Below, piece after piece: positions 5,044 to 18,716 of a stretch of 64,000 nucleotides of DNA. The stretch lies in contig NZ_JAFEWE010000004.1 of the NCBI RefSeq assembly GCF_017355785.1, positions 186,001-250,000 of the forward strand, read 5' to 3'. The notes under the pieces were generated by a model, which saw nothing but the letters and a program-made list of their open reading frames with translations, did no database searches and was not told where the DNA came from. The stretch's first letter is position 1. Every line of letters starts with the position of its first letter. Source of the stretch: Desertivirga arenae. Lineage in GTDB: Bacteria > Bacteroidota > Bacteroidia > Sphingobacteriales > Sphingobacteriaceae. The translations under genes and the position numbers were made by a program.

Positions 5044-7527
5044 ATGAATAAATTTCCCTTATACCTGTTTTTTATTCTGATCTCCAATATTCTGCCTGCA
5101 CAAATAAAATCTCCTTCTGAGTTCCTGGGTTACGGACTAGGAGAAAGGTTCACTCCTTACTATCGTGTACTTGGGTACTATAATTATATCGCTTCGGTTT
5201 CTCCAAATGTAAAGCTTAGGAATTACGGTAAAACTTATGAAGGACGGGATCTTATATTAGCAGCAATTGGTACTGAAGAAAATCTTAGTAGACTGGAAAG
5301 TATAAGAAAAAATAATCTTCGGCTAAGTGGGATAATATCAGGAGAGGGAAGTACAAAGCAGCCAGTCATTGTCTGGCTAAGTTATAACGTTCATGGAAAT
5401 GAGGCCGTGTCAACAGAGGCGTCAATGAAGACTCTTTACTATCTTGTTAATCCCGCTAATTCTAATGTTGGGCCTTGGTTAAAGAACACAATTATCCTTA
5501 TTGATCCTTGTATTAACCCTGATGGGAGGGAACGTTATGTCAACTTTTATAATTCAGTCAGGAATGTTATCCCTGACCCACTGCCTTTTACACGCGAGCA
5601 CCTTGAACCTTGGCCAGGGGGGAGAACAAATCATTATTATTTCGATTTGAATCGCGATTGGGCCTGGCAATCTCAGATAGAAACAAAACAGAGGATTGAA
5701 GTATTTAATAGTTGGCTGCCGCAGATTCATGTAGACTTTCATGAACAGAGCTATAACGAACCCTATTATTTTGCCCCTGCCGCAGAACCTTTCCATCAGG
5801 ACATCACTCCCTGGCAACGAGAATTTCAAACGCTGATAGGAAGAAATAATGCAAAGTATTTTGATGATAAAGGCTGGCTATACTTTACTAAAGAGCGATT
5901 TGATCTGCTTTATCCTTCTTATGGGGATACTTATCCAACATATAATGGCTCGATCGGAATGACGTATGAGCAGGGGGGATCTGGAAGAGCTGGTATCTCC
6001 GTACTGAACAGGCAGGGAGATACACTTACTCTCTCTGATAGGATTGACCATCATTTCACAACCGGCTTATCAACAATTGAGGTAGCCTCTGCTAATGCTG
6101 CCAAAGTGGTAACAGAATTTCATAATTACTTTCTTAATAGCAAGTCAAGGCCACCTGGCAGCTACAAAACTTATATAATTAAAGGTGATAATACTGAAAA
6201 GTTAAGAAGTCTAAGTCAGTTGCTAGAGCGAAATGGAATCGAGTTTGGTTATGGAGTACAGACCCAGGCTCGTGGCTATAATTATATAAGCGGAAAGAAG
6301 GAAACTTTTGCTGTAAATCCAGCTGATTTAATAATTAATGCCTATCAGCCAAAATCAGTATTGTTGAAGATATTATTTGAACCAAAAACATTTGTTTCTG
6401 ATTCTGTAACCTACGACATAACCGCATGGTCCCTCCCCTATGCCTATGGAATACAAACGTATGCACTTACAGAAAGCATTAAACCTTTGACTAAGGCAAG
6501 AAGAGAGGAGAATTTGGCCGGTCAGGAGCCGAGGGCTCCCATTGCCTATGCTGTTAACTGGAATTCGGTTAATGATATCAAGTTTTTGGCAGAGTTACTA
6601 AGGAATAACGTTAAGGTACGTTACTCAGAAGTTCCGTTTACAACAGGGGGAGTTAACTTTAATTCAGGTTCATTGATCATCTTAAGAACAGGAAATGAAG
6701 TGCTGCGCGGAGGTTTCGACAATTTAATTTCGGCAATGGCTACGAAGTACGCTTTGAATCTCCAGGCCATACATTCAGGTTTCGCTGAAAAAGGTCCTGA
6801 TTTAGGTTCAGGCAGGATCCGATTAGTTAGAAAACCCCGTATAGCCCTGATTGGAGGTGAAGAGACTTCGGCTCAGGCATTTGGTGAATTATGGCATTAT
6901 TTTGAACAGGAGATAGGTTATCCTATATCTGTCTTAGATGCTAATGATCTTTCCGGGTTAAGTCTTTTCGAATTCAACGTAATCATTGTACCTGATGGAA
7001 ATTATGCAAAGGCTTTGCCTGCTGATAAATTATTGAATTGGACTAATGCGGGAGGTAAACTTATAGTAATGGAAGATGCCATTATGCAACTGGTAGGTAA
7101 GAAGGGCTTCAATATTACCCTGAAAGAAGATGAAAGAAAGGAAGGACCAACTGAAATTATTCCTTACGCTGATCGGGAACGGGTTTCGGTGAGAACGAAT
7201 ATTCCCGGGGCTATTTTCAAGCTTCATCTCGACAATACTCACCCACTTGCTTTCGGCTACCCCGATTATTATTTTACTTTGAAGCGAAACGACAAATTGT
7301 ACAACTATTTAGGTGGAGGCTGGAACGTAGGTTTGTTAACAAAAAATAGCTATGTTACAGGTTTTGTTGGTAACACCACTAAAAAGAAACTAGTTGAAGG
7401 CTTATTATTTGGTGTTCAGGAAACCGGGGATGGTTCAGTTGTATACCTTGCAGATGATATTTTATTTCGCGGGTTTTGGGAGAATGGCAAGTTGATGTTT
7501 GGAAATGCAGTTTTCCTTGTTCCCTAA
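5044..7527 (+). CDS. Secreted M14-family zinc carboxypeptidase
   Basis: 827 residues with a signal peptide (hydrophobic 5-18, cleavage after L-P-A-Q). The M14 catalytic domain covers roughly 25-350: H117-x-x-E120 gives the first two zinc ligands (N-V-H-G-N-E), H-V-D-F-H around 229-233 gives the third, R-D-W at about 204-206 is a substrate-binding segment, and E309 in M-T-Y-E-Q-G-G is the likely catalytic glutamate. A C-terminal half of about 450 residues resembles the glutamine-amidotransferase-like fold (G-G-E-E-T, I-I-V-P-D-G-N-Y) found behind many Bacteroidota M14 peptidases. Likely an exported exopeptidase for protein scavenging; the substrate is unknown. Divergent from murF. Confidence 0.88.
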   Translation: MNKFPLYLFFILISNILPAQIKSPSEFLGYGLGERFTPYYRVLGYYNYIASVSPNVKLRNYGKTYEGRDLILAAIGTEENLSRLESIRKNNLRLSGIISGEGSTKQPVIVWLSYNVHGNEAVSTEASMKTLYYLVNPANSNVGPWLKNTIILIDPCINPDGRERYVNFYNSVRNVIPDPLPFTREHLEPWPGGRTNHYYFDLNRDWAWQSQIETKQRIEVFNSWLPQIHVDFHEQSYNEPYYFAPAAEPFHQDITPWQREFQTLIGRNNAKYFDDKGWLYFTKERFDLLYPSYGDTYPTYNGSIGMTYEQGGSGRAGISVLNRQGDTLTLSDRIDHHFTTGLSTIEVASANAAKVVTEFHNYFLNSKSRPPGSYKTYIIKGDNTEKLRSLSQLLERNGIEFGYGVQTQARGYNYISGKKETFAVNPADLIINAYQPKSVLLKILFEPKTFVSDSVTYDITAWSLPYAYGIQTYALTESIKPLTKARREENLAGQEPRAPIAYAVNWNSVNDIKFLAELLRNNVKVRYSEVPFTTGGVNFNSGSLIILRTGNEVLRGGFDNLISAMATKYALNLQAIHSGFAEKGPDLGSGRIRLVRKPRIALIGGEETSAQAFGELWHYFEQEIGYPISVLDANDLSGLSLFEFNVIIVPDGNYAKALPADKLLNWTNAGGKLIVMEDAIMQLVGKKGFNITLKEDERKEGPTEIIPYADRERVSVRTNIPGAIFKLHLDNTHPLAFGYPDYYFTLKRNDKLYNYLGGGWNVGLLTKNSYVTGFVGNTTKKKLVEGLLFGVQETGDGSVVYLADDILFRGFWENGKLMFGNAVFLVP

Positions 7528-11988: not shown

Positions 11989-12999
11989 TTAAATGAAGAA
12001 ACTAATAACGAAGTAGGTAAGCGCCGCCAGGGTTGCTGAAACAGGTATTGTTAGTATCCATGCCCAGATAAGGTTAATTGTTACCCCCCATCTTACAGCC
12101 GATACCCGCTTCGTTAATCCTACCCCTATAATTGAACCTGTAATAGTATGGGTAGTTGAAACTGGTATACCAAAGTGTTCTGTGATGCCAAGAGTTACCG
12201 CTCCCGCGGCTTCTGCTCCAACACCTTCGAGTGCCGTTACTTTTGTAATTCTTGAACCCATAGTTTTTACAATTCTCCAGCCTCCGCTCATTGTACCAAG
12301 AGCAATTGCTGCGTAACATACAACAGGTATCCATTCCGGCATAGAGGATCCATTGGAAATAACATTAGAAGCCACCATAGCCACATAGATAATACCCATT
12401 ACTTTCTGAGCGTCATTTCCTCCATGCGTGAAACTTAGTGCTGCTGATGAAAGCAATTGAAGTCTTTTGAACCACTTCTCTGCAGTGGCAGGTTTAGCAT
12501 GCCTGCATATATTGATAATAACAAGCGTTATGATCACTGAAATTATCATCCCTATTATCGGAGCGAGTACAATAAAGGAAATAGTAGTAAGAATCTTACT
12601 TACGTTAATTGCCTGAAGGGCGGCATCTCCCATAGTTAGTGCCTTGGCCATACCAGCACCAGCAAAACCGCCGATAAGGGTATGTGATGAGCTGGACGGG
12701 ATTCCGTAATACCACGTAAGCAGGTTCCAGGCAATAGCCGCCAGTAGACCAGCAAAGATTACGTGGAGCGTAATGTATTGTTCTAACACTGTTTTAGCAA
12801 TGGTGTTAGCTACTTTATGGTCATTAAAATAAAAATAAGCAGCGAAATTAAATATTGCAGCCCATAGCACCGCTTGAAACGGTGAGAGTACTTTTGTTGA
12901 AACGATAGTTGCTATTGAGTTTGCAGCATCGTGGAACCCGTTAATATAATCGAACGCCACAGCCATAATAATAACAACTACTAAGAGGGTAGTTACCAT
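11989..12999 (-). CDS. Inorganic phosphate transporter, PiT family
   Basis: 336 residues, about ten hydrophobic segments, inner membrane. PiT permeases take up metal-phosphate with protons or sodium. Both inverted family repeats are visible: N-G-F-H-D-A-A-N-S-I-A-T near residue 20 and G-G-N-D-A-Q-K-V-M-G near residue 190, with G-I-P-S-S-S-S-H-T and G-I-P-V-S-T-T-H-T in the paired re-entrant loops. It lies 10 bases downstream of the DUF47 gene, the usual partner, so the two form an operon under the Pho-box-like promoter at 13676-13709. Confidence 0.94.
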   Translation of the reverse strand: MVTTLLVVVIIMAVAFDYINGFHDAANSIATIVSTKVLSPFQAVLWAAIFNFAAYFYFNDHKVANTIAKTVLEQYITLHVIFAGLLAAIAWNLLTWYYGIPSSSSHTLIGGFAGAGMAKALTMGDAALQAINVSKILTTISFIVLAPIIGMIISVIITLVIINICRHAKPATAEKWFKRLQLLSSAALSFTHGGNDAQKVMGIIYVAMVASNVISNGSSMPEWIPVVCYAAIALGTMSGGWRIVKTMGSRITKVTALEGVGAEAAGAVTLGITEHFGIPVSTTHTITGSIIGVGLTKRVSAVRWGVTINLIWAWILTIPVSATLAALTYFVISFFI

Positions 13000-13009
13000 T
13001 AATTTTGTT

Positions 13010-13657
13010 TTAAGCGTTCTTTACAAGGATAGACTCCATAACATTAGCAGCATCTTCACACTTATCCGTTGCCGTCTCTAATGCAGAAAGGATCTCTTTG
13101 TATTTGATAAGCGCTACTGCATCTTTTTCATACTCGAACAACTCACCAACTGCAGTGTCAAAAACATAATCAGCCTGATTTTCCATGCTGTTAATCCTAA
13201 CGCAGGAATCAGTAATTACCCGGATATTTTTTAGGTTCTTCAACTCAACAACTGCCTTATCTACGTCCTGGCAACCTTGTAAAACAAGTTCTGCAAGTTT
13301 TTTAATTGGAGGGGTCATTACTTTTACTTTATACAATTGGATACGACTGGCGGATCCATGAATAAAGTCAGCTATATCATCAATGGCTGAAGCCAATGCA
13401 TGAATATCTTCGCGGTCAAAGGGAGTAATAAAGTTTTTGCTCAGCTCCAGAAATATTTGGTGCGTAATTTCATCGCCCCTGTGTTCCAGGTCTTCGATTA
13501 CCTTCCCGATTTCCTGTCTGCGGTCTTCATCCGTAGCGTTAACAAATTCAATTAAAGCCTCCCCAATCCTTATCAGGTTACCGCTTGCTTGCTCAAATAG
13601 AGGGAAAAATTTACGATCCTTCGGAACGAAGTACTGGAATATGCCGTTTAAGCCCAT
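13010..13657 (-). CDS. DUF47 / PhoU-like regulator of the phosphate permease
   Basis: 215 residues, almost wholly helical, with several acidic metal-binding type motifs (E-D-L-E-H-R-G-D-E-I-T, S-A-I-D-D-I-A-D). DUF47 proteins are PhoU-like helical bundles (TIGR00153 type) encoded next to PiT permeases, and are thought to regulate transport. The order on the minus strand is kinase, DUF47, PiT. The ATG at 13657 is preceded at 19 bases by a -7 element and at 34 bases by an 8-bp direct repeat, which makes this gene the likely first cistron of the Pi-regulated unit. Confidence 0.9.
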   Translation of the reverse strand: MGLNGIFQYFVPKDRKFFPLFEQASGNLIRIGEALIEFVNATDEDRRQEIGKVIEDLEHRGDEITHQIFLELSKNFITPFDREDIHALASAIDDIADFIHGSASRIQLYKVKVMTPPIKKLAELVLQGCQDVDKAVVELKNLKNIRVITDSCVRINSMENQADYVFDTAVGELFEYEKDAVALIKYKEILSALETATDKCEDAANVMESILVKNA

Positions 13658-13717: not shown

Positions 13718-14764
13718 TTAAACTGGAATAAAGTTTTGTTTTGCTTTCTCCAACGTAAATGCAAAAGTTGAACCAACTCCTTCTGTGCTTCTTACAGTTA
13801 TGGTTTGCTGATGAGCTTCTAGGATATGTTTAACAATGGCCAAACCCAAACCAGACCCTCCAATCTGTCGCGACCTGCTTTTATCAGTTCTGAAAAATCG
13901 CTCAAATAGCCTTGGAAGAGCTTTCTCTTCAATTCCTGCACCATTGTCGGTAACTTCCACAAGGATCTGATCATGTAGCTCAAACAGTTTAAGAGAGGTA
14001 GTGCCTCCTTCCTTACCATATTTTATTGAATTGTCTATTAAATTCACCAATACCTGGCAAATTTTGTCCCGGTCAGCATTTACCCAGGTAGGTGAGTCAT
14101 ACTTATCCTTAAAGATCAAAGTAATCTTGTATTTGTTAGCTTTCCCTTCCATCTGTTCTGCTACTTCATTTATTAAAACAGACAGGTCGAATTTCTCAAA
14201 ATTTATCGGTACTTCCCCGCTTTCAAGTTTTGATATTATATCAATGTCTTTAATGAGGTAGCTTAAGCGATCAACGTTCTTTGCGGCTTTGCGCAAAAAA
14301 TGTTCAACCTGATCATGGTCTTCAAGTCCATCTTCGTCAAGTAAGGCATCAATATATCCTTGTATCGCAAACAGAGGAGTTTTCAGCTCGTGGGAAATAT
14401 TGCCCAAAAATTCCCTTCTATATTGTTCTTGTTGTTTAAGTGCCTCAATTTCAATCTTTTTTACTCTGGCCCATTCTTTAACTTCCTGCTCTACATCATT
14501 AATGGGGTCATTACTAACATATTCCCCTATAGCGTCTTTCAGATCTTTACCCAGTTTCAGGTTATGGATTAGCTTATAGATCAACTTAATTTTGCTATAT
14601 ACGTACCGTTCTATGAGGTAATAGAAAACTACAAAACAGATAATGAGGGTAATAATAAAGGTAATTACAAGATCTGTCAGACTATGCTGAAAATAGTAAT
14701 TGACTAATCCAAGCGATAGGGCAACAACAAAAGCATTAATAAAAACGAGAACCCTAAGTTTCAT
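13718..14764 (-). CDS. Two-transmembrane sensor histidine kinase, PhoR-like
   Basis: 348 residues. Two adjacent membrane helices (about 6-24 and 32-51) leave almost no periplasmic loop, then a coiled linker (90-118), the HisKA box F-L-G-N-I-S-H-E-L-K-T-P with phospho-acceptor His125, and a HATPase domain with N-box (N-L-I-D-N-S-I-K-Y-G), D-N-G-A-G-I, and G-S-G-L-G-L-A. The architecture is that of PhoR-type kinases and the gene sits 60 bases upstream of the DUF47-PiT pair, so a role in phosphate sensing is likely. No response regulator gene is adjacent; the partner must be elsewhere. The short loop suggests sensing through the membrane or a partner protein. Confidence 0.85.
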   Translation of the reverse strand: MKLRVLVFINAFVVALSLGLVNYYFQHSLTDLVITFIITLIICFVVFYYLIERYVYSKIKLIYKLIHNLKLGKDLKDAIGEYVSNDPINDVEQEVKEWARVKKIEIEALKQQEQYRREFLGNISHELKTPLFAIQGYIDALLDEDGLEDHDQVEHFLRKAAKNVDRLSYLIKDIDIISKLESGEVPINFEKFDLSVLINEVAEQMEGKANKYKITLIFKDKYDSPTWVNADRDKICQVLVNLIDNSIKYGKEGGTTSLKLFELHDQILVEVTDNGAGIEEKALPRLFERFFRTDKSRSRQIGGSGLGLAIVKHILEAHQQTITVRSTEGVGSTFAFTLEKAKQNFIPV

Positions 14765-14870: not shown

Positions 14871-15992
14871 CTAAAAAGGAGCTCCATGTGTTCTTTTGAT
14901 AATAAAATTTGATAAAGGCTTAATAGTCTGTAAACCGCGCACTGCTAATTCAGATGTTATCCTGCCTCCAAATAGCTTTTGTGTTAAACGGCCAACAGCA
15001 AGTCGTTGTGAAAAATACCGCCTCCATTGTTGACTATACAGATCTTCAACAACCTTGCGGTCATTTTTATAAAATGCTATAAGGGTATCACTTAAAATTT
15101 TCGCAGAATGGATAGCTATGGCCATCCCATTACCACACAGAGGGCTTATCATTCCTGCAGAATCCCCACAAAAAAGAACATGATCTTCAACCAGTCCTTT
15201 GCGTTCAAAACTGATCTCGTTAATCACTTCAGGCTTTGAGTAAAGGAATTCCGAATTTTGAAAGAGCATTTTAAGAAGAGGGTTTTCGTAGAGCACTGCC
15301 TTTTCCATGTCCAGAAGGTTGCCATGGGTCTTAATGTTATTTTTATGGGATAGATAACAAAGACAATACTTGTCGTCTTCTATTTTAACCGTTCCGCAGT
15401 AACCATCTTTAAAGTTGTCTAATTGAACAAGATTTTTTGGGAAGTCGGTTTTGATATGATACTTAACACCAATAAAGGGACTGCGATGTGTAAAGAAGGT
15501 TCTGGCTTTATCAAGATTTGAACGTTTTCCATGAGCAGCAATAACAAAATCTGAAGTGATCAGACGTCCATCCTCTAGTAACACTTCAAATTGATTATCA
15601 TTGAAGCTTATATTATTTGCCTTTATTCCAAGAACAACTTTGGCCCCTGAAGCAAGGGCCTTATGGTACAGATGGTCATCAAGGAGGAAGCGACTTAGTC
15701 CTAGTCCCCCTAAATCCAGTGAAGTTTTAAAAGTCCTCCCGGAAACAGAGCTTATGGCCAATTCAGTGATCTTGGCGCCGTTAAATCGATAAAGGTCAAT
15801 CTCTAAACTTTTTAGGAAAGCGATGACTTCATTTGAAATATATTCACCGCAAACCCTGTGAAAAGGGTAAGTTTTTTTTTCAAAAAGAGTTACTGGGAAA
15901 CCATTCCGGCTTAGAATAATAGAACAGACAAGGCCGGCTAAACCTCCACCAACAATAGTTATACTGGGCTTACTCTGCGTTAATGTTACCAT
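14871..15992 (-). CDS. FAD-dependent oxidoreductase of the type III PKS locus
   Basis: 373 residues. N-terminal dinucleotide fold G-G-G-L-A-G (15-20) ending in F-E-K-K, then H-R-V-C-G-E-Y (45-51), a motif of the geranylgeranyl-reductase/monooxygenase branch, and a C-G-D-S-A-G-M-I-S-P-L-C-G-N-G-M segment near residue 275 that closes the FAD site. It could be a hydroxylase or a reductase; sequence alone does not decide. It overlaps the methyltransferase gene by 23 bases, so it is the third cistron after the polyketide synthase. By analogy with the flavoprotein SrsC of the Streptomyces srs operon, oxidation of a phenolic PKS product is a reasonable hypothesis. Confidence 0.85.
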   Translation of the reverse strand: MVTLTQSKPSITIVGGGLAGLVCSIILSRNGFPVTLFEKKTYPFHRVCGEYISNEVIAFLKSLEIDLYRFNGAKITELAISSVSGRTFKTSLDLGGLGLSRFLLDDHLYHKALASGAKVVLGIKANNISFNDNQFEVLLEDGRLITSDFVIAAHGKRSNLDKARTFFTHRSPFIGVKYHIKTDFPKNLVQLDNFKDGYCGTVKIEDDKYCLCYLSHKNNIKTHGNLLDMEKAVLYENPLLKMLFQNSEFLYSKPEVINEISFERKGLVEDHVLFCGDSAGMISPLCGNGMAIAIHSAKILSDTLIAFYKNDRKVVEDLYSQQWRRYFSQRLAVGRLTQKLFGGRITSELAVRGLQTIKPLSNFIIKRTHGAPF

Positions 15993-16686
15993 CCTTATAA
16001 ATTATCAACTGCCAGCGAAATGCCCACATCCATCTTAACTGATAATTGGCGATGCCCGCTTTTGCCAGCAATTCCTCAATTTCTTTCCTTTGAAAACCTT
16101 TTAGAACAGAAAGCTTGGAGTCATGCTTTACCATTGGAGATTTTGAGAATGCTTGAGTCAGAACGCCAATAGAATGATAGGCAAACCAATGCCGGTGTAA
16201 ATCATTTACGATGACTGCTTTTCTACTACAATCTAACATTTTTCTTACGAGTGCTATCCAGTCGGCATTGTCAAAGTGATGGGTAAACAGACTAGAAAGA
16301 ACAATATCAAACTGATCAGCACGAAGCTTTTCAGACATAACGTCAGAATGAATGTAACTAATTTCAGGATAGGGTGAAGAATGAAGTCGTGCATATTCAA
16401 CTGCCGTTGCAGTAGCATCGACACCAACAAATTTTAAATTCTTGCCATTTTTCCTTCCCCATTTTGCCAGCACCCGCAGGGAATCTCCGCCTCCGCATCC
16501 CCAGTCACTTATAGTCATATCATTTTTAATTCCAATCTTCTTTAAGGCATTAAAAAATACAGCGTATCCTCCCAGTAGCTTGTTTATTACTTCCAGCTCA
16601 TCCATAATTGGAAAGATGGTATCATTCCCAAGCTGAAAGTCATCCATCATTTCAGGGAGAGTACTACGTTGAGTAAAGTCAGGCAT
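15970..16686 (-). CDS. SAM-dependent methyltransferase of the type III PKS locus
   Basis: 238 residues, class I fold. Motif I D-W-G-C-G-G-G-D (61-68), the acidic end of the next strand in G-V-D-A-T, and a Y-I-H-S-D-V segment after it bind SAM. Its ATG directly follows the PKS stop codon (TAA then ATG, no gap) and its end overlaps the flavoprotein gene, so the three are tightly coupled. In the srs operon a methyltransferase (SrsB) acts on the PKS product; the same role is inferred here. The methyl acceptor atom (O or C) cannot be told from sequence. Confidence 0.85.
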   Translation of the reverse strand: MPDFTQRSTLPEMMDDFQLGNDTIFPIMDELEVINKLLGGYAVFFNALKKIGIKNDMTISDWGCGGGDSLRVLAKWGRKNGKNLKFVGVDATATAVEYARLHSSPYPEISYIHSDVMSEKLRADQFDIVLSSLFTHHFDNADWIALVRKMLDCSRKAVIVNDLHRHWFAYHSIGVLTQAFSKSPMVKHDSKLSVLKGFQRKEIEELLAKAGIANYQLRWMWAFRWQLIIYKDGNINAE

Positions 16687-17778
16687 TTATATAGCTTCAA
16701 TTACCATGGTTTCAACTGTTAAACCAGGGCCAAAAGCAAAGGTCATTATGTTTTCGCCTCTTAATGCTTCTTTTAATAATCGTTTTAAAATAAAAAGGAT
16801 TGTTACTGAAGACATGTTTCCATATTGCCTTAGGATGTCATAGGAAATATCGAGTGCTTCTTCTGGCAGATCAAGCACTTGTTCACACACTTCCAGGATT
16901 CTTCGGCCTCCGGGATGTATAGCAGTTCGATTTATAGAAGTCCTTGATATTCCAGCTTTGGCCGCAAGATCATCTGCTACTTTATTTATTTTCTTGCCAA
17001 TATTCCTTGCGATCCCCGAAGAAAGACGCATTTCAAATCCATAATCACCTATGCGCCATGCCATTTCATCTTTCGCTTCGGTAACCAATGTATTATAAAA
17101 GCATTTCAAAGCAAGGCCATGTTTGTCTCCCTTATTATGTTCAACAAGTACTGCAGCAGCACCATCTGCAAACAATGAATTTGCTACCCAGTTCTCCATA
17201 GTGTTTTCTCGTTGAAAGTGAAGTGTGCACAATTCCACATCTACAATCAGAACTTTAGCTTCCACGTTGGCTCGACAAATGTAATCAGCCATTTTTAAGG
17301 CATTGAAAGCGCCATAACACCCCATAAAATTTATGCAGGTTCGTTCAATGGTCTCAGCAAGTTGCATTTCCTGAACTAGATCTATATCAAGTCCTGGCGC
17401 ATACATCCCTGTACAACTTACGGTGATAAGGTGAGTTGCATCAGCGAGATTGAATTCAAAACTCTCTTTCAGATTTTTTAGTGCCTGAATCGCTAAATCT
17501 TTTGCATTATTTTCATAGAAATCACTTCTTTTCTTTGTGCCTGGAAAAGGTTCTAAATTCCCATCGTTGCCAAAAAAAGTAAAGGTGCCACGTGAAACAC
17601 CAAAGTCAGGAATAACAGAATATCTGAATTGAATACCAGAAGCATCATAGAGTTTTTTTAGCCTGGAACCATTCAACTCATCCAGATTATGTGCGGTCGA
17701 CATAAACTCAAGAATTTTCATCTGAGGAAAACGGTATTCAGGATTTGCTGTTCCAATAGCGGTGATAGTGCTGCTCAT
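16687..17778 (-). CDS. Type III polyketide synthase (chalcone/stilbene synthase superfamily)
   Basis: 363 residues, the usual length for a bacterial homodimeric type III PKS. The catalytic triad is intact: Cys154 in F-M-G-C-Y-G, His288 in A-I-H-P-G-G-R, Asn321 in Y-G-N-M-S-S. The C-terminal cyclisation loop reads A-F-G-P-G (348-352). These enzymes extend an acyl starter with malonyl-CoA and cyclise it to an alkylpyrone, resorcinol or similar ring. Here it is the first gene of an operon with a methyltransferase and a flavoprotein, and is divergent by 50 bases from a UbiA prenyltransferase. The starter is unknown; a fatty acyl chain is plausible by analogy with SrsA and BpsA. Confidence 0.93.
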   Translation of the reverse strand: MSSTITAIGTANPEYRFPQMKILEFMSTAHNLDELNGSRLKKLYDASGIQFRYSVIPDFGVSRGTFTFFGNDGNLEPFPGTKKRSDFYENNAKDLAIQALKNLKESFEFNLADATHLITVSCTGMYAPGLDIDLVQEMQLAETIERTCINFMGCYGAFNALKMADYICRANVEAKVLIVDVELCTLHFQRENTMENWVANSLFADGAAAVLVEHNKGDKHGLALKCFYNTLVTEAKDEMAWRIGDYGFEMRLSSGIARNIGKKINKVADDLAAKAGISRTSINRTAIHPGGRRILEVCEQVLDLPEEALDISYDILRQYGNMSSVTILFILKRLLKEALRGENIMTFAFGPGLTVETMVIEAI

Positions 17779-17828
17779 TTCAGTTTCTGTAATTTCAAGA
17801 ACGTTTTTTAACTCTTAAGGTTTTTCTC

Positions 17829-18716
17829 ATGCCAATTCTGCCATCGAAGTCAGCATTACTCCACATGCGTTTCTTTTTTTCGTTTTTCCTGCTGCCTGTG
17901 TATGTTTTTGCATTAAGTCAGGCTAAAGGTACCCAGACGCTTCGTGCATTACTGGTATTTACCTGCTGGCACTTTTTTATTTACCCGGCAAGCAATGGCT
18001 ATAATAGTTACTTTGATAAAGATGAAGGCAGTATAGCACTGTTGGAAAAACCTCCCTCTGTAGACAAAAGCCTTTACTGGTTTTCTTTGTTTTTTGACCT
18101 TATTGGGTTTTTGCTGGGATTGCTGGTAAGTCTTGAATTTGCGCTGGCAACAGTGATATACGGACTATTATCAAAAATGTATAGCCACCCTACTATCCGG
18201 TTGAAAAAAAATCCAATAGCCAGTTTTCTTGTGGTATTTATTTTTCAGGGAGCTTTCGTTTATTGGGCTAGTTTGGCTGCTCTTTCTGGAAGTGGTATCA
18301 CAGAAGTATGGGATAGTAATGTTTTTATAGGGGGAATGATATGTTCATGTTTAATTGGTGCCTCCTATCCCCTTACTCAAGTTTATCAGCACGAAGAGGA
18401 TACCCGGCGTGGGGATAGGACCCTAAGTCTTTTGCTTGGAATCAATGGATCATTTGTGTTCTCCGGGATTTTATTTCTAACCGGTGTGATCCTTGTTTTC
18501 CTATACTGGCAATCAAAAGAGATTATTTCAAATTTCTGGCTCTTTGTACTTTTTATTCTTCCTGTATTATATGTCTTCCTTTCCTGGTTTACGAAGGTTT
18601 TAAGGAATAGTACTAATGCTAATTTTAGAAATATGAGTAGAATGACACTGGCAAGTGGTACTGCCATGTTGCTTTATTTTTTGGTGGTCTATTTTCGTGC
18701 TCTCTTTAAAATCTAA
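17829..18716 (+). CDS. UbiA-family prenyltransferase
   Basis: 295 residues with about eight membrane helices. The first Asp-rich motif is N-G-Y-N-S-Y-F-D-K-D-E (56-66) and the second Q-H-E-E-D-T-R-R-G-D-R-T (187-197), matching the two magnesium-diphosphate sites of UbiA enzymes, which move a prenyl group onto an aromatic ring in the inner membrane. It is not next to menaquinone or haem O genes; it shares a 50-base divergent promoter region with the type III PKS. The simplest reading is that it prenylates the aromatic product of that locus, but this is inference. A menA-like role is a less likely alternative. Confidence 0.85.
   Translation: MPILPSKSALLHMRFFFSFFLLPVYVFALSQAKGTQTLRALLVFTCWHFFIYPASNGYNSYFDKDEGSIALLEKPPSVDKSLYWFSLFFDLIGFLLGLLVSLEFALATVIYGLLSKMYSHPTIRLKKNPIASFLVVFIFQGAFVYWASLAALSGSGITEVWDSNVFIGGMICSCLIGASYPLTQVYQHEEDTRRGDRTLSLLLGINGSFVFSGILFLTGVILVFLYWQSKEIISNFWLFVLFILPVLYVFLSWFTKVLRNSTNANFRNMSRMTLASGTAMLLYFLVVYFRALFKI

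Follow-up and report, generated by a model that had tools for sequence, protein, structure and literature searches.

A conserved polyketide synthase and UbiA gene set of Bacteroidota as a candidate pathway to a prenylated phenol or quinone lipid

A window of 64,000 nucleotides from Desertivirga arenae, by which we mean the whole stretch of DNA analyzed, contains at positions 14871-18716 a locus of four genes. They encode a type III polyketide synthase (PKS), a methyltransferase (MT) dependent on S-adenosylmethionine (SAM), an oxidoreductase dependent on flavin adenine dinucleotide (FAD), and a UbiA-superfamily membrane prenyltransferase, here called UbiA. We consider it probable that the four genes cooperate in making a membrane phenol or quinone lipid that carries both a fatty and an isoprenoid tail; judged from all analyses together, the most likely product would be a prenylated, methylated, and oxidized alkylresorcinol-type lipid. 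The gene set with its intact motifs, its operons, the near-obligate co-occurrence of PKS and UbiA, and a UbiA clade distinct from the menaquinone and haem prenyltransferases were established directly; prenylation of the ring and its quinone state at the D. arenae locus we infer. The locus is composed as follows:

14871-15992, minus strand: FAD-dependent oxidoreductase, 373 amino acids, predicted class A monooxygenase/halogenase fold (Pfam FAD_binding_3 above cut-off)
15970-16686, minus strand: class I SAM-dependent MT, 238 amino acids, PRK06202-like (Pfam Methyltransf_25 above cut-off)
16687-17778, minus strand: type III PKS, 363 amino acids (Pfam Chal_sti_synt_N and Chal_sti_synt_C above cut-off)
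17779-17828: divergent intergenic region between PKS and UbiA, 50 bases, presumably a shared promoter region
17829-18716, plus strand: UbiA-superfamily membrane prenyltransferase, 295 amino acids (PF01040 above cut-off)

The PKS and MT genes adjoin with a gap of 0 bases, MT and FAD share 23 bases, and 50 bases lie between the starts of the divergently oriented PKS and UbiA genes. Open reading frames, Pfam searches, and alignments thus reproduced the coordinates, the coupling of the three genes, and the Cys-His-Asn triad given in a preliminary description of this DNA.

Conservation of the gene set was followed in the 80 nearest PKS-relative loci, obtained from a search of genome contigs, in which partner genes were located by tblastn. 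The same stretch held the MT gene in 76 of these loci, the FAD gene in 73, and UbiA in 68, the latter always divergent from and upstream of the PKS. In 63 of the 80, all four genes fell inside a range of about 8 kb around the PKS. The preliminary description had proposed that the four function together and had named absence of UbiA from most homologous loci as the finding that would remove its prenylation claim; UbiA is present in most of them, and the proposal stands. Mucilaginibacter loci have the FAD and MT genes in exchanged order, and the FAD gene lies on the far side of UbiA in Roseivirga and Flammeovirgaceae, indicating that the gene set survives rearrangement. Other lineages carry all four genes on one strand, in the order UbiA-PKS-MT-FAD (loci L133, L134, L141, L142, and L143) or PKS-MT-FAD-UbiA (L135).

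Co-occurrence was then counted genome-wide. Among 251 Sphingobacteriaceae genomes, a PKS of this clade (at least 41% identity) is encoded in 74, in one of them split over two contigs. The UbiA clade (E ≤ 1e-30) occurs, in raw counts, in 64 of these 74 and in none of the 177 genomes lacking the PKS. Across 395 genomes of the phylum, the UbiA scores show a wide gap between 272 and 152 bits, and the 26 genomes above it coincide with the 26 best in the PKS ranking, for which the threshold was chosen after the UbiA gap was known. The two genes need not be neighbors: three genomes (G391, G411, and G627) have them on one contig but separated by hundreds of kilobases, and two Arcticibacter-type genomes (G020 and G054) have them on different contigs, so that their co-occurrence is independent of linkage. 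Pairwise PKS and UbiA distances are correlated with r=0.90, compared with 0.69 for PKS and MT, a comparison made without an unlinked control gene. UbiA is therefore no chance neighbor but an almost obligate partner of the PKS in Bacteroidota.

The UbiA protein scores 70.6 bits against PF01040 (cut-off 34.2) and combines a helical fold with the two Asp-rich motifs of the superfamily, NSYFDKDEGS, a variant of the form NxxxDxD, and YQHEEDxxRGDxT. Its AlphaFold model (pLDDT 94.9) matches ApUbiA (Z 22.9), AfUbiA (22.3), the archaeal lipid synthase MjDGGGPS (20.3), and UBIAD1 (19.7), which suggests a membrane prenyltransferase without specifying the acceptor. Sequence comparison with the PDB gave no matches, profile search included. 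Of the NCBIfam equivalogs MenA, CtaB, UbiA, and MqnP, none came near its cut-off, the best model being PRK12884 with 46 of 269 bits. UbiA might act on a separate acceptor, such as a lipid, sugar, or phosphate-type substrate as used by archaeal lipid synthases, leaving the trio to make an unprenylated, hierridin-like phenolic lipid. An archaeal lipid synthase does stand among the best structural neighbors, close PDB relatives by sequence are lacking, and some genomes retain the trio without UbiA. The fold neighbors, however, do not discriminate between acceptors, and the near-perfect co-occurrence with the PKS, the same-strand operons, and the correlated divergence favor a shared product; we regard a separate acceptor as unlikely.

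In a phylogenetic tree the cluster enzymes form a clade of their own, apart from E. coli UbiA, MenA, and CyoE, and both CtaB and an MqnP-like enzyme (MqnP/UbiA_other) encoded elsewhere in the D. arenae genome also fall outside it. Many outer branches of this tree are long, and the one exception to the separation is a distant relative from family f24. The grouping with MenA or CtaB that the preliminary description had named as contrary evidence was thus not seen. Family f24 itself (L154, L155) has operon-type PKS genes, and 34 of its genomes contain a distant, unlinked UbiA relative with E values of 1e-33 to 1e-44. We also considered that UbiA could be the menaquinone prenyltransferase of the organism, tied to the PKS by position only, as MenA was not found in the D. 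arenae genome. MenB was not found there either, and MqnC scores above its cut-off; together with the MqnP-like UbiA, this indicates that menaquinone is made by other genes, apparently through the futalosine route. As this UbiA is missing from 187 relatives in the family sample and the tree sets it apart, we rejected it as the missing MenA, and a role in menaquinone synthesis is highly improbable.

The PKS contains both chalcone synthase domains and the catalytic triad Cys154, His288, and Asn321, which does not vary among 35 homologues and corresponds in alignments to the triads of PKS18, Steely1, and ScoTHNS. A PKS tree places the Bacteroidota enzymes inside a group with operon-type PKSs (MT-FAD-PKS) of other phyla, with support values of 95/82 for the set including Paludisphaera and 99/96 for the Bacteroidota plus Psychrobacter set. 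THN synthases, PhlD, Pks11, and the PKS of Azospirillum, the only PKS in the tree associated with an ICMT-type MT, are placed apart. A tryptophan, W241, is invariant in the operon-type group and is shared by Steely1; the same alignment column holds Leu in PKS18, Tyr in THN synthases, Phe in Pedobacter PKSs linked to fatty acid synthase genes, and Trp in Pks11. Trp281 of ArsB has been linked to formation of resorcinols in preference to pyrones (PMC9927152). Clade, W241, and characterized relatives together suggest that the PKS forms an alkylresorcinol-type ring. An alkylpyrone or another non-resorcinol ring, subsequently modified by the MT and the FAD enzyme, would be in keeping with PKS18, an alkylpyrone synthase, being among the top PDB matches and with the Trp of Pks11. 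PKS18 nevertheless lacks this Trp and belongs to another clade, the PKSs of characterized MT-FAD-PKS operons yield alkylresorcinols (PMC10896814), and aromatic prenylation and hydroxylation require a phenol, which makes such a ring rather improbable. Assignment of the PKS as DpgA was rejected: it reaches 160 bits against an NCBIfam cut-off of 425, and the dpgBCD context is missing, with no enoyl-CoA hydratase neighbors at the locus.

The MT falls among the soluble class I enzymes (Methyltransf_25; PRK06202 at 139 of 243 bits) and gave no match to the ICMT family PF04140 in the Pfam search. For the FAD enzyme, a PHBH-like modeled fold, FAD-binding motifs, and similarity to 3-hydroxybenzoate 6-hydroxylase (Z 35.0) and 4-hydroxybenzoate 1-hydroxylase (Z 34.1) point to a class A flavin monooxygenase. 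Its best fold matches are the halogenases ChlB4 (Z 37.5) and PltA (Z 37.4); it was nevertheless rejected as a halogenase since the WxWxIP motif is absent and GYCGTVKIEDD occupies the site aligned with Mpy16 and CmlS. Instead of hydroxylating the ring, the enzyme might saturate the prenyl tail as a reductase of the geranylgeranyl-reductase type: the superfamily model TIGR02032 is its second best at 80 bits, and the geranylgeranyl-reductase-like structure 3oz2 matches with Z 32.7. These 80 bits fall far short of the 158.8-bit cut-off, the fold matches to monooxygenases and halogenases are stronger (Z 34-37.5), and homologues of the enzyme occur in trios of phyla with no UbiA nearby; a prenyl reductase is improbable as well. 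Fold matches to hydroxylases and reductases, like those of UbiA, leave the substrate unsettled.

The proposed pathway to a prenylated alkylresorcinol-type lipid would comprise four reactions, listed here without implying their sequence. The PKS would build the alkylresorcinol-type ring from malonyl-CoA and an acyl starter, for which a fatty acyl-CoA or acyl-ACP (acyl carrier protein) is most likely. The soluble MT would methylate a ring carbon or oxygen, and the FAD enzyme, judged by its fold and by hid and pkq analogues, would hydroxylate or oxidize the ring to a hydroquinone or quinone. UbiA would transfer a prenyl group from a prenyl diphosphate to a ring carbon or oxygen.

Several observations weigh against this proposal. 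Shared ancestry is uncorrected in the co-occurrence counts. Ten Sphingobacteriaceae genomes have the PKS without UbiA, and those inspected retain the whole trio or most of it, so that, in these genomes at least, a product without a prenyl group is viable. The first motif of UbiA is atypical, with NxxxDxD in place of NxxxDxxxD. Pks11, which the PDB names an alpha-pyrone synthase, has Trp at the W241 column, and the correspondence of W241 to Trp281 of ArsB is presumed; the ring type is for these reasons not settled. Finally, our literature search found no description of this Bacteroidota cluster or of a phenolic lipid of its type.

Downstream of the biosynthetic genes, the following neighbors were identified:

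13718-14764, minus strand: core histidine kinase, conserved in position and probably outside the pathway
13010-13657: PhoU_div/DUF47 protein, beyond the kinase
11989-12999: phosphate transporter (Pit), beyond PhoU_div/DUF47

The kinase gene directly follows the biosynthetic genes on the same strand in 54 of 55 relatives, with a median gap of 10 bases. It is present in all 121 Sphingobacteriaceae examined, with or without the PKS, and its occurrence in PKS-less genomes led us to reject the histidine kinase-DUF47-Pit genes as pathway members. Its linkage is most likely a matter of read-through or position.

Related loci differ in their surroundings. In Mucilaginibacter (L047 7398-7928; L079 7442-7987; L128-L131), a YceI-family gene lies directly upstream of the PKS, between it and UbiA, and is retained even after loss of UbiA. 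Some members of the YceI family bind lipids or isoprenoids. A gene for a lipid- or isoprenoid-binding protein is reported in one planctomycetal-type operon (PMC10896814), and the Mucilaginibacter gene is compatible with a lipid or isoprenoid product. In the UbiA-less Mucilaginibacter locus L079, YceI-PKS-FAD-MT is preceded by a phytoene-desaturase-like gene (5754-7238) along with further genes apparently concerned with isoprenoids or lipids. Three further Sphingobacteriaceae loci (L162 4220-9540, L163, and L164) combine close FAD and MT homologues with a PKS of another clade (about 28% identity) and continue with genes for a FabA-like dehydratase, a ketoacyl synthase, and a phosphopantetheinyl transferase; this PKS apparently receives its substrate from a small type II system resembling fatty acid synthesis. 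In two Cytophagales-type loci (L105 7995-9095; L111 7998-9101), the PKS has no MT, FAD, or UbiA gene nearby, and both have a pyruvate-dehydrogenase E1 alpha-like gene beside it. The MT-FAD-PKS trio also occurs on plasmids of Psychrobacter, Deinococcus, Roseomonas, Sphingobium, and Paludisphaera, where no adjoining UbiA is annotated. On the Psychrobacter urativorans plasmid (L117 6001-8824), the FAD and MT genes are convergent to the PKS; this PKS branches within the Bacteroidota enzymes, a likely case of horizontal transfer.

Retention of the PKS and UbiA pair across several families, even when unlinked, predicts a real, conserved lipid. Such a lipid would extend the idea of polyketide quinones as alternative electron carriers beyond Actinobacteria, and UbiA would represent a new family of bacterial aromatic prenyltransferases, of use for cannabinoid-like phenols. 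With low probability, many aerobic members of the Bacteroidota, an abundant group of bacteria, could even maintain another pool of membrane quinone alongside menaquinone. It would consist of a polyketide quinone with alkyl and isoprenoid tails, made by PKS, MT, FAD enzyme, and UbiA, and might serve either to carry electrons or to protect the membrane.

The combination of functions is already known, given the agq, loseolamycin, hid, and planctomycetal precedents; what we did not find described is its conserved form across several Bacteroidota families with a UbiA clade of its own. In plant cannabinoid-type pathways, a type III PKS provides the resorcinol core, a UbiA-type enzyme prenylates the aromatic ring, and an FAD oxidase acts as well; there the gene assembly is unrelated and the FAD enzyme comes from a different family. 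SrsB, of the Streptomyces griseus srsABC system on which the preliminary description had modeled the first three genes, is an ICMT-type membrane enzyme. The locus shares with srsABC and pkqABC the loose PKS-MT-oxidase logic leading to alkylquinones, and this much of the model holds; but these sets have no prenyltransferase, the D. arenae MT is of class I rather than ICMT-type (PF04140), and its PKS is apart from the ICMT-linked Azospirillum enzyme. In mycobacteria and Streptomyces, the products of the three-gene sets pkqABC are polyketide quinones with a role as electron carriers in respiration (PMC9927152).

Closer counterparts are the MT-FAD-PKS operons of the hierridin/planctomycetal class, with which the locus shares both coupled class I MT and FAD genes and the PKS clade. 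Hierridin B is made by hidABC in picocyanobacteria, and a prenyltransferase is reported in one hierridin-type cluster, of Raphidiopsis mediterranea (PMC8086630); hid belongs to another phylum, has no conserved UbiA partner, and was likened to our locus by gene functions. Planctomycetal mtr-fdo-t3pks PKSs produce pentadecyl- and heptadecylresorcinols, which gain one methyl group, probably on carbon, when the MT and FAD genes are expressed as well (PMC10896814). These operons encode the same three functions, and the PKS of the Paludisphaera plasmid (L121), the only planctomycetal trio compared, is 36% identical and in the same clade; they differ in their order MT-FAD-PKS, in having no reported UbiA, and in products that are simple or singly methylated alkylresorcinols. 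The loseolamycin PKS is flanked by a UbiA gene and an MT gene (PMC7587189). In functional make-up, agq of Actinoplanes missouriensis, an actinobacterial cluster, unites all four functions (type III PKS, MT, hydroxylase, and membrane prenyltransferase). According to Awakawa 2011, as cited in PMC10896814 and PMC4044012, it yields alkyl-O-dihydrogeranyl-methoxyhydroquinones; alkylresorcinols are hydroxylated by this cluster and prenylated by its membrane-bound prenyltransferase. By calling UbiA an addition, the preliminary description undersold an almost obligate Bacteroidota partner, and the pairing of a type III PKS with a membrane prenyltransferase has a precedent in agq (PMC10896814, PMC4044012).

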